A stretch of DNA of 64,000 nt. Source: Metallosphaera tengchongensis (GTDB lineage: Archaea > Thermoproteota > Thermoprotei_A > Sulfolobales > Sulfolobaceae). Made by a program: the position numbers and the translations under genes. The stretch covers positions 1,655,501-1,719,500 of the forward strand of contig NZ_CP049074.1 of NCBI RefSeq assembly GCF_013343295.1. The letters are read 5' to 3'. Shown piece after piece: positions 50,584 to 57,448 of the stretch (positions within the stretch are counted from its first letter, which is position 1; every line of letters begins with the position of its first letter). The notes under the pieces were generated by a model, which worked only from the letters and a program-made list of their open reading frames with translations, did no database searches and had not been told where the DNA came from.

Positions 50584-52083
50584 ATGAAGTTCCTTTTAAT
50601 AACTGGGAGGTTGGCACGACCGATCCTCGAGGAAGCTGTGAAGGACTTGAAGGAAAAGGTCACAGTCCTAGCTCTAGATTACCCCGTTGCCTCACTCATG
50701 AGCGTTACATACATCCTTGAGAAGATGAAGCAACTAAGGGGCAAGGTACTTGGATATGATTTCATAGTACTACCTGGCTTAGTTTACGGAGACGCTAGCG
50801 CAATAGAGAGGGAATTTGGGGTCAAGACAGTGAAGGGTTCAGAGAACGCTTGGGACGTACCCAGGGTTATTGATGCACTGGAGAGAGGAGTCAAGCTATC
50901 TACAGTTTACCCTGCTGATAAGGTACTAAGTGATGTAGCTAGATATGACGTATACGAAGATCTTAGGAGAATAGAAGAAAAGGGAAATTACGCTTTTGAC
51001 GTAGGATTCAAGGTCCCTGTGAGACCTCCCCCATTTAGAATACTGCTGGAGCTCAACCCATCGTCTACCCTAGAGAAGTGGATTGCAGACGTTGAAAGAT
51101 CTAAAAAGTTTGTGGACGGGGTAGTTGTGGGTTTCCCCGTAGGTTTCTCGGATCTGGACGAGGTTAGAAGGAGGGTCAGGAAGATCGGTGAAATGGTAAA
51201 TACAATAGGGATAGACAGCGATTCCCCTTCGGTTCTGAGAGAGGGAGTAAGGAGCGGAGCCAACTTGGTATTTAACTTAAACGAAACGAACATCGACGAG
51301 TTAACTGACATAAGGGATGGACCTGCATTCGTAGTCGCCCCATTTTCCACTGAGGATAGAGGTAACTTGACTGTGGCCCTCGTGGAGAGGGCAAGGTCTA
51401 AGGGTTTCTCGAAGTTGATTGCCGATCCTGTCCTATCCCCTCCCTTAATGGGAATGACGGACAGTTTAGGTTATTACTTACAATTAAGAGAAAAACTGAA
51501 GGACGTCCCCTTGCTCATGGGTGTCCTAAACGTTAGTGAACTTATAGACGTGGATAGTCACGGGGTTAACGGTCTCATGGCTGCCATAGGAGCCGAATTG
51601 GGAGTTTCAATTTTCCTTACAATGGAAAAGGGGAAAACTAAGTGGAGCCCCTGGGAGTTGAGGGAGGCTTCAACAATGGTGTCCCTCGCTATGACCAGGG
51701 GGAAAACCCCGACCAATTCAGGGAAAGACCTCTTAGTCATAAAAGATAAGAGGAGGACAAGGCAGGCTTTACCGATAGGGGATAGGATCAGAGCTGAGAA
51801 AATAGAGCCCTCTATGGACAGTTCCGGTTTCGCCCACATAGTAGTTAATGATAGGAGGATACTCGTATCTTTTTCAGGTTCAAAGGATTTACTTGTGGAA
51901 GGGGAAGATGGTTTGGCAGTTGGACGTACTTTGCTAAAGCACATAGAAAACATTTCGAAGGATCATGCTCTATACCTTGGGTACGAGCTTGCCAAAGCTG
52001 AAATTGCCTGTCTCCTTGATAAGGAATACGTGCAGGACAAGCCCCTGTTGAGGAGGATAGGAGTTGAGAGTGGTAGTTCCTAG
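50584..52083 (+). CDS. dihydropteroate-synthase-like protein (DUF6513 family)
   Basis: 499 residues. The N-terminal 160 form an extra domain; residues about 170-400 look like the DHPS TIM barrel, with ILLELNPSSTLEKW, DGVVVGFPVGFSD, GIDSDSPSVLREGV, IADPVLSPPLMG and GVLNVSELIDVDSHGVNGL. True DHPS makes the bond between pterin and p-aminobenzoate; the archaeal proteins of this type are linked to C1-carrier pterin synthesis without a proven reaction. The frame opens at 50536, but the ATG at 50584 (MKFLLITGRLARP) fits the family. PTPS and MptE-like genes follow within 4 kb. Confidence 0.85.
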   Translation: MKFLLITGRLARPILEEAVKDLKEKVTVLALDYPVASLMSVTYILEKMKQLRGKVLGYDFIVLPGLVYGDASAIEREFGVKTVKGSENAWDVPRVIDALERGVKLSTVYPADKVLSDVARYDVYEDLRRIEEKGNYAFDVGFKVPVRPPPFRILLELNPSSTLEKWIADVERSKKFVDGVVVGFPVGFSDLDEVRRRVRKIGEMVNTIGIDSDSPSVLREGVRSGANLVFNLNETNIDELTDIRDGPAFVVAPFSTEDRGNLTVALVERARSKGFSKLIADPVLSPPLMGMTDSLGYYLQLREKLKDVPLLMGVLNVSELIDVDSHGVNGLMAAIGAELGVSIFLTMEKGKTKWSPWELREASTMVSLAMTRGKTPTNSGKDLLVIKDKRRTRQALPIGDRIRAEKIEPSMDSSGFAHIVVNDRRILVSFSGSKDLLVEGEDGLAVGRTLLKHIENISKDHALYLGYELAKAEIACLLDKEYVQDKPLLRRIGVESGSS

Positions 52084-52465
52084 CATCTCCCTCTTCCGCT
52101 TCGGTGAGTACACTCTAGGGATTGCTCACTATCCTCTTCAAACTTCAGGAGAACTGCTCGAGAGGGTTAAAAACACCATGAGATTGTCCTCGTGCAGTGA
52201 CAAGGAAAGTTGTTACCCCATGATTTTTGGGGGAATAATACTCTTCGAGCGAGGGTCTCCAGTTTGGAGGCTGGAATACGAAAACTATTTTGAGGTAACT
52301 ATGGAAGAGCATTGTAGGACTTCCCTATCCCAGTTCCTTGATGCCTCCTCTAGGGGTGAGGAGACGTGCCTGAAAGGTGAGGGCTGGTCTCTATTCCTGA
52401 GGGCGAGTAAATGTGCAAATTGTAAGAAAGTAGACCCAATGGGCATAAGAGCCATTGTGACTTAG
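52064..52465 (+). CDS. hypothetical Cys-rich protein, 133 aa
   Basis: Starts at a TTG or at one of the GTG codons just after, inside the end of the DHPS-like gene (20-base overlap), so it is coupled to it. It has seven cysteines, in part spaced like metal ligands ([20 protein letters not shown]). A zinc or iron-sulfur site is possible. It is convergent with the PTPS gene by a 4-base overlap. Not recognised; likely a helper in the same pterin pathway or in C1 metabolism, which is inference from position. Confidence 0.65.
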
Positions 52466-52878
52466 GGGTATTCTATAACCGCGTAGGAGTCCTTCCCCTC
52501 ATATATCTTAATGGTTACCTTATACTCTGTACCTAAGGTCTTTGAGATGTATTTAGCTACCTCAGTGCCTATGTACTCCACAGTTGGGAATGGGGAATCG
52601 ATTACCTTTACCTCAAGACGAAACGGGGACCTAATCTGTATCTTGTCCATGTCCCTCTTCGGAACAATAAACTTATGGTCCCATAGGGCTATAGCCTCTT
52701 TTACAATTTCTCTTAGTTTATTGAAGTCAATAACAAATCCGCTCTCCTCGTGGAGTGGTCCTTCCACTTCCACGTTGACCGTGTATGTGTGCCCGTGAAG
52801 CTGGTCATCCCTGGGCGATGAGAGGGTATAATGCGCAGAGTCTATGGTAAATCCCTCCATACCCACTTTCACTTTCAT
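52462..52878 (-). CDS. 6-pyruvoyl-tetrahydropterin synthase-like enzyme, acidic active-site variant
   Basis: 138 residues of the PTPS/QueD fold. Zinc-binding histidines are His16 (SAHYT), His28 and His30 (QLHGHTY); GFVIDFNKL near 66, ALWDHKF near 84 and a Glu in IKIYEGKD near 128 complete the active site. The catalytic Cys of ordinary PTPS (C-x3-HGH) is replaced by Asp24, and Asp25 sits at the place (x2 before HGH) where PTPS-III enzymes have Glu. This suggests cleavage of dihydroneopterin triphosphate to 6-hydroxymethyldihydropterin, a step needed before the MptE-like kinase. Overlaps the next minus-strand gene's stop (ATGA). Confidence 0.87.
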
Positions 52879-53360
52879 TTAACAGTCACCAAGTTCTTAT
52901 TGAAGTGTTCCCAGAGGGCCTCAATTAAATATTTTATCTCGTCGCAGATCATCCTGATATCTTGGTCCTGTCTCACTTTCTCTATAATATTGTTGACTGT
53001 GACCAGTTCCTTGAAGCTTCCTCTAGCCAGAACTCTATCGTGGAAAGTTAACCTCTCGCCCATAGTAGTGTTTCCACCGTACTCTATTAACCTGAAAACA
53101 GCGTAGGTCATGGAATCAATGTCCACATCAGCTACGTTAAACCTCTCGTTAAGCTCCCTTCTTAGCACACCAACTTGTTCCTTTACCAGTTCCACAAGAC
53201 TATCCACTACCTCCATCCTCGATCTGAAAGTCTCGTTTTCCAGGAGAGACCTAAATTCAGTAGCCTGAAGGCAAGTGCTGTTGCACGGTACGTCAACTTC
53301 AATTACCTCTATCCTCATTGAAGGTTTCTCGGCCTGGTATCGTTGGATCCAGTAATCCAT
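52875..53360 (-). CDS. hypothetical helical protein, 161 aa
   Basis: It starts with an ATG about 30 bases from the divergent MNT-like gene and is translated into the PTPS gene (ATGA overlap). The N-terminal 30 residues are beta-rich with [10 protein letters not shown] (two Cys, possible metal or disulfide), then long helices full of charged residues. No family is recognised. By place it is part of the pterin transcription unit together with PTPS. Confidence 0.68.
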
Positions 53361-53392
53361 AACTTTAATTCAGATCCTTTAAGACTTTAAAT

Positions 53393-53824
53393 ATGTCCTT
53401 TTCAAAATTTATTGCCGACGTCTCAGAGTCAGTTTTTGACCACTATGGAGACAAGCTTAAGGCCTTAGCGATTTTCCCTTCTGACCCAATTCTTATGTTG
53501 ATTATTCTGGAAGATGTGGATTCCATCTCCTTTTTAGCTAGGGGTCAAATCTTTAATCATTTCTACAAGAAGCAGAGGAACAAGACCGAGTATAGGAAGT
53601 TCATTGTAGACAACCAGTCCGATCCTCCTGTTATAGGGCTTATATTGAGCCCGGGTGAGGTAGGACACTTTTACCCCATAGTGATCTCAACGATCACTTT
53701 CGGATATGTAGTTTACGATCCTGATAAAATACTGGACATTAAGAACTGGAAGGCTATCGAAGATATGGGGATAAAGTTCATAGATCTCAAAAACATCAAA
53801 AAGGGGGAGGTATTGGAGCTTTGA
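53393..53824 (+). CDS. nucleotidyltransferase-like (MNT) protein, active site eroded
   Basis: 143 residues with the profile of a minimal nucleotidyltransferase: an N-terminal helix HYGDKLKALAIF leading to the strand-turn that should carry GSxxxGxxxxSDxD, followed by LMLIILEDVDSI, and late PIVISTITFGYVVYDPDKIL, typical of these proteins. The Gly-Ser and Asp-x-Asp residues are not visible, so catalysis is probably lost. The following gene codes for a HEPN-like protein and overlaps by 4 bases, which supports an MNT-HEPN pair. Assignment is by fold reading only. Confidence 0.6.
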   Translation: MSFSKFIADVSESVFDHYGDKLKALAIFPSDPILMLIILEDVDSISFLARGQIFNHFYKKQRNKTEYRKFIVDNQSDPPVIGLILSPGEVGHFYPIVISTITFGYVVYDPDKILDIKNWKAIEDMGIKFIDLKNIKKGEVLEL

Positions 53825-54237
53825 ACACCAGTTCCTTAGCGTCGGAGTACCTCTTGAGGGCTACCAGAACCTTGCAGGAGTCTACTAATGCCTTCAATGA
53901 GGGGGACATGTACTTCACCATTGTAAGAGGTAAGGAAACCCTTGAGAACTTGGCCTCCGTCCTGCTGTCACTCTACGGGATATTACCCTCCTCTGGCTCG
54001 CCTGTTAACGTGCTTGGTTACATGTTGGAATCCAGGGAGTTGGATCACGACACTAAGGTCGTAATTTCAGAGATACAAGATATATGGAGGGAAGCCTCAT
54101 TCATAACCTACGTTAACGAGTCTCCAACTAAGGCACCTACTGTCCTAGCTAGACAAGTGGAGGTAAAATCGTTTCTTGAGAGGATAACTAAGACCTTCGA
54201 TAAGGTGAGGGAGGTATTCGATGGATTCCACAATTGA
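53821..54237 (+). CDS. HEPN-like helical protein
   Basis: 138 residues, TTG start overlapping the MNT-like stop. YLLRATRTLQESTNAFNEGDMYFTIVRGKETLENLASVLLSLYG is a typical HEPN first half (long helices that pack as a dimer). The RNase motif R-x4-6-H can be read only at the very end (REVFDGFH), at an unusual place, and the classic polar site is not obvious; it may be non-toxic. MNT/HEPN pairs are mostly toxin-antitoxin systems, but this one lies inside a metabolic operon and overlaps the next gene by 17 bases. Confidence 0.6.
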   Translation: MNTSSLASEYLLRATRTLQESTNAFNEGDMYFTIVRGKETLENLASVLLSLYGILPSSGSPVNVLGYMLESRELDHDTKVVISEIQDIWREASFITYVNESPTKAPTVLARQVEVKSFLERITKTFDKVREVFDGFHN

Positions 54238-54412
54238 CTTAGAAGAGTTCACCTGTTCCAGTGACCCAATAGAGACCATAGGGTTTCTAAAAGGGAAGAA
54301 AGTAATTTTCGCTATTTCCAGAAGGAGCCCATTTTACCACGCCATAAAAGAGAAGTATAACGTTCATGAAGTGAAAAGAGAGGGAGATACGATATACTTC
54401 ATGATAAATTGA
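54221..54412 (+). CDS. small hypothetical protein, 63 aa
   Basis: Begins within the end of the HEPN-like gene (17-base overlap) and ends inside the start of the MptE-like gene (TTGA). The product has two short beta/alpha units (FLKGKKVIFAISRRSPFYHAI, EVKREGDTIYFMIN) like half of a small mixed fold; no motif is recognised. Its tight embedding suggests a true gene whose product works with one of its neighbours. Confidence 0.6.
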   Translation: MDSTIDLEEFTCSSDPIETIGFLKGKKVIFAISRRSPFYHAIKEKYNVHEVKREGDTIYFMIN

Positions 54413-55041
54413 GATGGTTATCCTTTTACAGCTTGATTAGGAGGGAGTTCGGTTTCTCTGAAAGGGAGGACTATAGATCGGCACTAGTCCTTAACATGAT
54501 CATAAGGGAAGACTTTGAAGATCTATTGAGATCCAAGATAATGGGGAGGGAGGTTGCTGTAGTTGGTGCAGGCCCCTCACTTAATGCGCTGAAGGATGTT
54601 GAGGAGGATGTGATTGTAGCAGCTGACGGCGCTACCAATTACCTAGTCTCTAGGGGGATAATTCCAGACGTAGTTGTTACAGACTTGGACGGAATTGAGA
54701 CCTACCCAGACTCAATCTACGTAGTTCATGCCCACGGTGACAACATCTCCAAGATGTGGAAATTGAGTTACATGGGTATAGTGTTGGGCACCTCCCAAGT
54801 TTTCCCCTTCGGGAGGCTCAAGCTTTACGGCGGGTTCACGGATGGCGATCGGGCAGTTGTGATGGCCATGACTCTAGGCGCAAAGCGAATAACTACTTAC
54901 GCAATGGACTTGGACTCAGATAAGATTGGGATGTATTCAAAGCCATTCTACAAAAACGATGTACCCATGAATTACGTCAAGAGGAAGAAACTTAATGTAG
55001 CAAAGGAGATTCTACATACCCTATTTAGGAAAGATTTATAA
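54409..55041 (+). CDS. MptE-like 6-hydroxymethyl-7,8-dihydropterin pyrophosphokinase
   Basis: 210 residues of the DUF115/MptE family, which in archaea replaces bacterial FolK: AVVGAGPSLN near 50 and DVVVTDLDG near 88 with the key Asp pair, then VVHAHGDN near 108 and GFTDGDRAV near 144. The enzyme would pyrophosphorylate 6-hydroxymethyldihydropterin made by the PTPS at 52462. TTG start overlaps the previous stop. It ends the plus-strand chain MNT-like, HEPN-like, small protein, MptE. Confidence 0.86.
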   Translation: MRWLSFYSLIRREFGFSEREDYRSALVLNMIIREDFEDLLRSKIMGREVAVVGAGPSLNALKDVEEDVIVAADGATNYLVSRGIIPDVVVTDLDGIETYPDSIYVVHAHGDNISKMWKLSYMGIVLGTSQVFPFGRLKLYGGFTDGDRAVVMAMTLGAKRITTYAMDLDSDKIGMYSKPFYKNDVPMNYVKRKKLNVAKEILHTLFRKDL

Positions 55042-57157: not shown

Positions 57158-57448
57158 TTGCCAACAGTTCACCTCTCTATCCCAGAGTGGATGTACGAGG
57201 AGCTAAAGAGAAAAGCAGAAGACATGGGGATACAGGTAACCGACCTGGTAAAGTTTTACATAAAAAGTGGGATGGAGGGGAAAGAAGAGTCTCCTTCTAA
57301 GGAAAATACAGAGAAAGTAGAGGAGTCCATAGCTTACCTGGAAGCTCGCGTGGCTCAGTTGGATCTTCTGGTCATGGAGCTTGTCAAGAAGTTGAAAGTT
57401 TTAGAGGAGGAAGACGAAGAGGAGCAGGTTGAGATAGAGAGGAGTTAA
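57158..57448 (+). CDS. ribbon-helix-helix protein with C-terminal coiled coil
   Basis: 96 residues from a TTG with AGAGG ahead. The first 40 form an RHH domain (PTVHLSIPEWMYEELKRKA then DMGIQVTDLVKFYIKSGM), the rest is an acidic coiled coil with leucine heptads (VAQLDLLVMELVKKLKVLEEE), which may be a dimer or partner-binding part. It is divergent from the 58-residue RHH gene. As a DNA-binding protein with an acidic tail it might control itself and its neighbour. Confidence 0.78.
   Translation: MPTVHLSIPEWMYEELKRKAEDMGIQVTDLVKFYIKSGMEGKEESPSKENTEKVEESIAYLEARVAQLDLLVMELVKKLKVLEEEDEEEQVEIERS

Follow-up and report, generated by a model that had tools for sequence, protein, structure and literature searches.

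A conserved Sulfolobaceae gene block that combines three pterin-enzyme families with lineage-specific companions

The archaeal pathway to the pterins of tetrahydromethanopterin (H4MPT) and folate uses three protein families: MptE (PF01973), a dihydropteroate-synthase-like (DHPS-like) protein (TIGR00284/DUF6513), and PTPS (COG0720). PTPS proteins are distinguished by short signatures, with CxxxHGH defining PTPS-I, CxxxxxHGH PTPS-II, and ExxHGH PTPS-III (PMC5041015). PTPS-III members work in archaeal methanopterin synthesis, PTPS-VI is a validated folate enzyme, and hybrid PTPS-I/III enzymes have been described (PMC5041015). The same three families meet in an eight-gene block (50584-55041) of Metallosphaera tengchongensis, a member of the Sulfolobaceae with a complete, 2.18-Mb genome. 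Coordinates refer to the window, the 64,000-nucleotide stretch of contig NZ_CP049074.1 (1,655,501 to 1,719,500) that was analysed. The block resembles the H4MPT/folate pathway further in that PTPS occurs in a genome devoid of MptD, as expected where PTPS-III or PTPS-VI replaces FolB or MptD, and in that PTPS adjoins MptE in other families of the order as well. It differs in two respects: the PTPS of the block shows none of the described signatures of PTPS-I, -II, or -III, and Sulfolobaceae add three genes, here called U133, U161, and U63, that are not found elsewhere in the order.

Two other systems invite comparison. QueD, the PTPS-I enzyme of preQ0 and archaeosine synthesis, belongs to the same superfamily, and the host genome encodes TGT and GAT-QueC, a crenarchaeal archaeosine enzyme (PMC5485725), with no other PTPS. 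Unlike QueD, the PTPS of this locus lacks CxxxHGH and is linked to MptE instead of QueC, whose gene is about 200 kb distant in the host genome. The second system is the MNT-HEPN (MntA-HepT, type VII) toxin-antitoxin pair, which two genes of the block, NT143 and HEPN138, resemble in gene order and family relationship. In contrast to such modules, NT143-HEPN138 has lost both catalytic motifs, is chromosomally fixed in the Sulfolobaceae inside a biosynthetic operon, and is missing in one genus.

The block is interpreted here, with confidence that is evenly balanced, as a Sulfolobaceae locus for the later steps in the synthesis of the archaeal one-carbon (C1) carrier pterin (sulfopterin in Sulfolobus), accompanied by lineage-specific accessory proteins. 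PTPS, lacking the Cys of queuosine and biopterin enzymes, would produce 6-hydroxymethyl-dihydropterin by cleaving 7,8-dihydroneopterin or a phosphate of it, standing in for MptD. MptE would convert this product into its diphosphate, an activated pterin that the DHPS-like protein would couple to the aryl unit. U161 would most likely be an obligate partner of PTPS, either as a subunit or as a stabiliser, whereas U133 and U63 would assist the DHPS-like and MptE units, respectively, as accessory proteins. NT143-HEPN138 would represent a domesticated, catalytically dead pair, taken up by the MptE operon and open to loss. The gene families, the integrity of the block, the PTPS-U161 linkage, the absence of MptD, the loss of catalytic motifs, and the conserved promoter spacing are observed; which step PTPS catalyses in this family, what U161 does, and whether U133 and U63 contribute are inferred. 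The PTPS step lacks a clearly assigned enzyme in Sulfolobaceae for both the C1-carrier pterin and the preQ0 precursor of archaeosine. The locus offers a short list of testable genes, headed by PTPS-U161, in a family with genetically tractable hosts (Sulfolobus acidocaldarius and S. islandicus).

The initial annotation described a compact pterin neighbourhood in which four unrecognised genes are interleaved with three pterin enzymes. Its reading frames are all present, and the three enzyme families are clear by profile matches. The block is compact, with overlaps of 4-20 bp; however, it holds five further genes rather than four, and its eight protein genes form not one operon but three transcription units on two strands. 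The first unit (+ strand) comprises the DHPS-like gene (50584..52083) and U133 (52064..52465), which overlap by 20 bp. The 499-residue DHPS-like protein, a candidate dihydropteroate-synthase-like coupling enzyme with DUF6513 and PterinBD-DUF4346 regions, matches TIGR00284 at full length (residues 1-488; 501 bits, cut-off 257). The second unit (- strand) comprises U161 (52875..53360) and PTPS (52462..52878), which overlap by 4 bp, and PTPS overlaps the convergent U133 by another 4 bp. PTPS matches PF01242 with 75.3 bits (gathering cut-off 22.4), and its HGH zinc region is present, with H16, H28, and H30 invariant. The third unit (+ strand) runs from NT143 (53393..53824) through HEPN138 (53821..54237) and U63 (54221..54412) to MptE (54409..55041), with successive overlaps of 4, 17, and 4 bp; its last product is an MptE-like 6-hydroxymethyl-7,8-dihydropterin pyrophosphokinase that matches PF01973 with 83.1 bits (gathering cut-off 34.6). 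The sole gap inside the block is a 32-bp intergenic region (53361..53392) that separates the divergent starts of U161 and NT143. Purifying selection acts on each of the eight frames (nonsynonymous to synonymous rate ratio, dN/dS, 0.01-0.25 in close pairs), and therefore even the 63-codon U63 is a real gene. No window protein matched a defence family in PADLOC. The main text of the S. islandicus essential-genome paper does not mention the block genes.

The integrity of the block was assessed in MptE loci drawn from 15 additional Sulfolobaceae and from 25 genomes elsewhere in the order, followed by 14 more Sulfolobaceae loci picked by a U161 match, with genes ordered by iterated profiles. All eight genes are collinear in 27 of the 31 Sulfolobaceae genomes, the window included, and two more genomes, from the genus Aramenus, lack only NT143 and HEPN138. 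The DHPS-like gene is part of the block in 29 Sulfolobaceae loci and is also present in G119, a genome that is 79% complete, where the DHPS-like gene, U133, MptE, and MBL stand side by side and everything between them has been removed. In genus g60 (L133, L134), the region after MptE has lost LeuA and MBL, and an inverted TrxB-FBPase-AAA segment lies beside MptE, yet the eight genes remain in order. Genome G118 carries the block as two pieces, U161-PTPS and NT143-HEPN138-U63-MptE, with about 60 kb between them; the breakpoint coincides exactly with the boundary of the two divergent operons that share a promoter region, and both operons are whole. A search of 1.6 Mb of G118 revealed neither the DHPS-like gene nor U133, about 0.5 Mb of this genome lying outside the search. 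The persistence of the eight genes amid moved flanks in g60, together with the position of the break in G118, speaks for functional units rather than chance. Within the Sulfolobaceae, the block holds together as a coherent unit and is more than backbone synteny.

The gap between the divergent operons is itself conserved. Wherever both U161 and NT143 are present (27 loci), their starts are separated by 30-36 bp, and 24 different sequences occur among these loci. An AT-rich, TATA-like box is present in each direction, about 26-28 bp upstream of each start codon: A or T occupies positions -27/-26 on the NT143 side and -28 to -26 on the U161 side in 27 of 27 loci. This spacing fits a putative bidirectional promoter for two leaderless archaeal transcripts, and, with this short segment in common, co-expression of the PTPS and MptE operons is probable. 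In the genus Aramenus (L039:9429-9697, L040:9119-9383), NT143-HEPN138 is cleanly gone, and the divergent promoter segment is retained; between it and U63 lies a short leader that contains a purine-rich, GGAG-like motif.

The catalytic residues of PTPS set it apart from the described classes. The initial annotation noted an acidic residue in place of the catalytic Cys, which is true of the window protein, where Asp occupies this position (DDQLHGH). This is not a conserved acidic replacement, as the position is Asp or Asn in all 29 Sulfolobaceae loci listed and the window. The position of the PTPS-III Glu is variable across Sulfolobaceae loci (N, D, Q, A, S, or E), with Asp in the window and Glu in only three loci (L044, L045, L126). 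Accordingly, neither the PTPS-III signature ExxHGH, associated with FolB replacement, nor the PTPS-II signature CxxxxxHGH is found in the window PTPS, and the PTPS-I (QueD) signature CxxxHGH is absent from the window and from every Sulfolobaceae locus. PTPS is single-copy in all Sulfolobaceae genomes checked, except for G119, which has none. MptD (PF04038) was found in 0 of 31 Sulfolobaceae genomes, with positive controls in three archaea. PTPS plausibly replaces MptD in this family because MptD is absent from these genomes and PTPS is single-copy; the gap left by MptD would thus be filled by PTPS, possibly together with U161. A pterin role is supported by the linkage of PTPS to MptE beyond the family: judged from coordinates, nine genomes from three other families have a PTPS gene no more than about 1 kb from MptE. 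One of these genomes outside Sulfolobaceae, G018, has an MptE-linked PTPS without the Cys/Glu motif and a second PTPS located elsewhere. As a separate observation, two MptE-linked PTPS proteins outside the family (L063, L065) carry both Cys and Glu (CENLHGH and CESLHGH), the pattern of PTPS-I/III hybrids. No PTPS match was obtained in 37 of the 100 MptE-bearing genomes of the order.

Among the companion genes, U161 is the best pathway candidate. It adjoins PTPS in 30 of 30 genomes, including G118 with its split block, and both genes are lost in G119. PTPS and U161 are therefore a strong genetic pair. The U161 protein has 161 residues and is mostly helical; Pro25, Cys26, Cys30, and Cys139 do not vary across 30 sequences. 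Its AlphaFold2 model (pLDDT 91.9, pTM 0.85) had no match with E below 0.5 among PDB structures and viral models. A more specific but unlikely proposal is that U161 is an obligate second subunit, such that a PTPS without both known catalytic residues would work only with U161, whose invariant cysteines 26, 30, and 139 would provide a catalytic or metal site. If so, the pair would constitute a new route to 6-hydroxymethylpterin (or 6-carboxytetrahydropterin) confined to Sulfolobaceae. U133 and U63 remain pathway candidates. U133 is predicted to have a mixed alpha/beta fold (AlphaFold2 pLDDT 91.2, pTM 0.85) and had no match with E below 0.5 in the PDB; both U161 and U133 are thus well-modelled folds that match no solved structure. 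No gene of the block evolves faster than U133, which has few invariant residues; this speaks against a catalytic function. U63, with 63 residues, has a single invariant Cys (Cys12). A TusA-like sulfur carrier seemed plausible by eye for U63 and was rejected (hhalign probability 0.03%, E 0.93, no Pfam match). Sequence searches of solved structures with U161, U133, U63, NT143, and HEPN138 gave nothing convincing.

NT143 and HEPN138, which the initial annotation counted among the unrecognised genes, are recognisable as a decayed MNT-HEPN pair. HEPN138 is a member of the HEPN fold family: PF05168 matches 12 of 13 family members (best 2.3e-6), although the window member alone scores 0.031, below the cut-off. 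The HEPN138 family alignment (A5) shows no conserved R-x4-6-H and thus no Rx4-6H RNase motif. The profile of NT143, a degenerate MNT-family nucleotidyltransferase, matches the canonical MNT of G118 (2.2e-6), which is located before a HEPN gene, and alignment to this protein (L207) reveals loss of the GS..DxD motif. That canonical pair (L207:17917-18826), with GS..DxD intact, is a distant relative of NT143-HEPN138. HEPN domains exapted from MNT-HEPN pairs usually lose their RNase residues (PMC3710099). The window pair is, as judged from its motifs, a degenerate MNT-HEPN pair without catalytic residues. Because PTPS, MptE, and the DHPS-like gene stay in the genus Aramenus when NT143 and HEPN138 are absent, the pair is not needed for the pterin, and its members are unlikely to be pathway enzymes.

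Several observations weigh against the assignment of the whole block to C1-carrier pterin synthesis. In an order-level set of 117 genomes (16 Sulfolobaceae and 101 others), MptE occurs in 100, of which 84 are outside Sulfolobaceae. U161, U133, and U63 are present in 16 of 16 Sulfolobaceae and in none of the 101 others, and they are thus missing from 84 genomes that bear MptE; HEPN138 has weak matches elsewhere in the order, as expected for a HEPN protein. None of the three is therefore needed for the shared pterin steps, and they can only be family-specific additions rather than parts of a shared archaeal pathway. The co-occurrence proposed in the initial annotation consequently holds within Sulfolobaceae, where gene order is kept and the eight genes travel together even with rearranged flanks, and fails beyond the family, where MptE is kept and U133, U161, and U63 are absent. 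Moreover, the positions of non-pterin neighbours (AAA, FBPase, TrxB, LeuA, and MBL) are almost as conserved in most genomes, and collinearity alone therefore says little. Rate covariation, examined by mirror tree with the common signal removed, yielded no pterin-specific signal (PTPS-U161 residual correlation 0.03). G119 keeps the DHPS-like gene, U133, and MptE without PTPS, U161, or MptD, albeit in an incomplete assembly. Of the earlier view that several companions may be partners in this synthesis, the coherent family block, the PTPS-U161 pair, and the promoter region common to the divergent operons speak for a part; NT143-HEPN138 drops out, general co-occurrence with pterin enzymes is disproved beyond the family, and a role for every remaining partner would go beyond these observations.

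The most pertinent alternative concerns archaeosine. PTPS-U161 may serve archaeosine instead of, or besides, the pterin, because G119 lacks PTPS, U161, full-length GAT-QueC, and TGT while keeping MptE and the DHPS-like gene, which links the pair just as much to archaeosine; GAT-QueC gives only a short, weaker match in this genome, not a full-length one, and TGT gives none. An exclusive form of this explanation, in which the pair merely sits between pterin genes, PTPS is the sole QueD, and U161 compensates for the lost Cys, is considered improbable. Something must supply the QueD product, given that PTPS is the sole member of its family in the Sulfolobaceae examined and full-length GAT-QueC is present in 30 of 31 genomes. 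However, G119 represents one loss event in an incomplete genome, and G128 (71% complete) also has no TGT match yet keeps U161 and GAT-QueC, so that TGT can be missing through incompleteness. The lack of CxxxHGH throughout Sulfolobaceae, the linkage of PTPS to MptE in other families, and the promoter region in common with the MptE operon also count against it. A bifunctional PTPS, combining QueD activity with replacement of dihydroneopterin aldolase and with U161 adjusting or enabling one activity, would reconcile a single PTPS, the absence of MptD, and the presence of GAT-QueC, and it has a precedent in the hybrid PTPS-I/III enzymes (PMC5041015). Known hybrids possess both Cys and Glu, whereas the Sulfolobaceae PTPS has neither in most loci, and this explanation is rated as rather improbable.

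The companion genes might alternatively be unrelated to pterins and simply ride on a conserved stretch of the Sulfolobaceae chromosome. The common order of AAA ATPase, FBPase, TrxB, LeuA, and MBL in most of the family fits such passive synteny, as does the absence of U133, U161, and U63 elsewhere in the order. Nevertheless, the eight genes stay together in g60 when the flanks move, G118 is split precisely between promoter-sharing operons that are each whole, and neither the overlaps nor the divergent gap of 30-36 bp has been lost; passive synteny is accordingly judged quite doubtful. Least credible by far is a working MNT-HEPN toxin-antitoxin module that lies in the MptE operon by chance. NT143-HEPN138 has the order MNT then HEPN and is related to the canonical pair of G118, but it lacks GS..DxD and Rx4-6H, and its fixed position through most Sulfolobaceae genera and dN/dS of at most 0.25 are unlike those of mobile modules.

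Two minor observations concern the neighbourhood of the block. Both in the window (57158-57448) and in G119 (L229:2966-3391), MBL is followed by a gene for a small protein (VHLSIPEWMYEELKRKAEDMG...) that is predicted to be DNA-binding-like. In G118, the gene convergent with PTPS (L135:7850-8518) reads by eye as hexulose-6-phosphate-synthase-like, a candidate C1-related neighbour.

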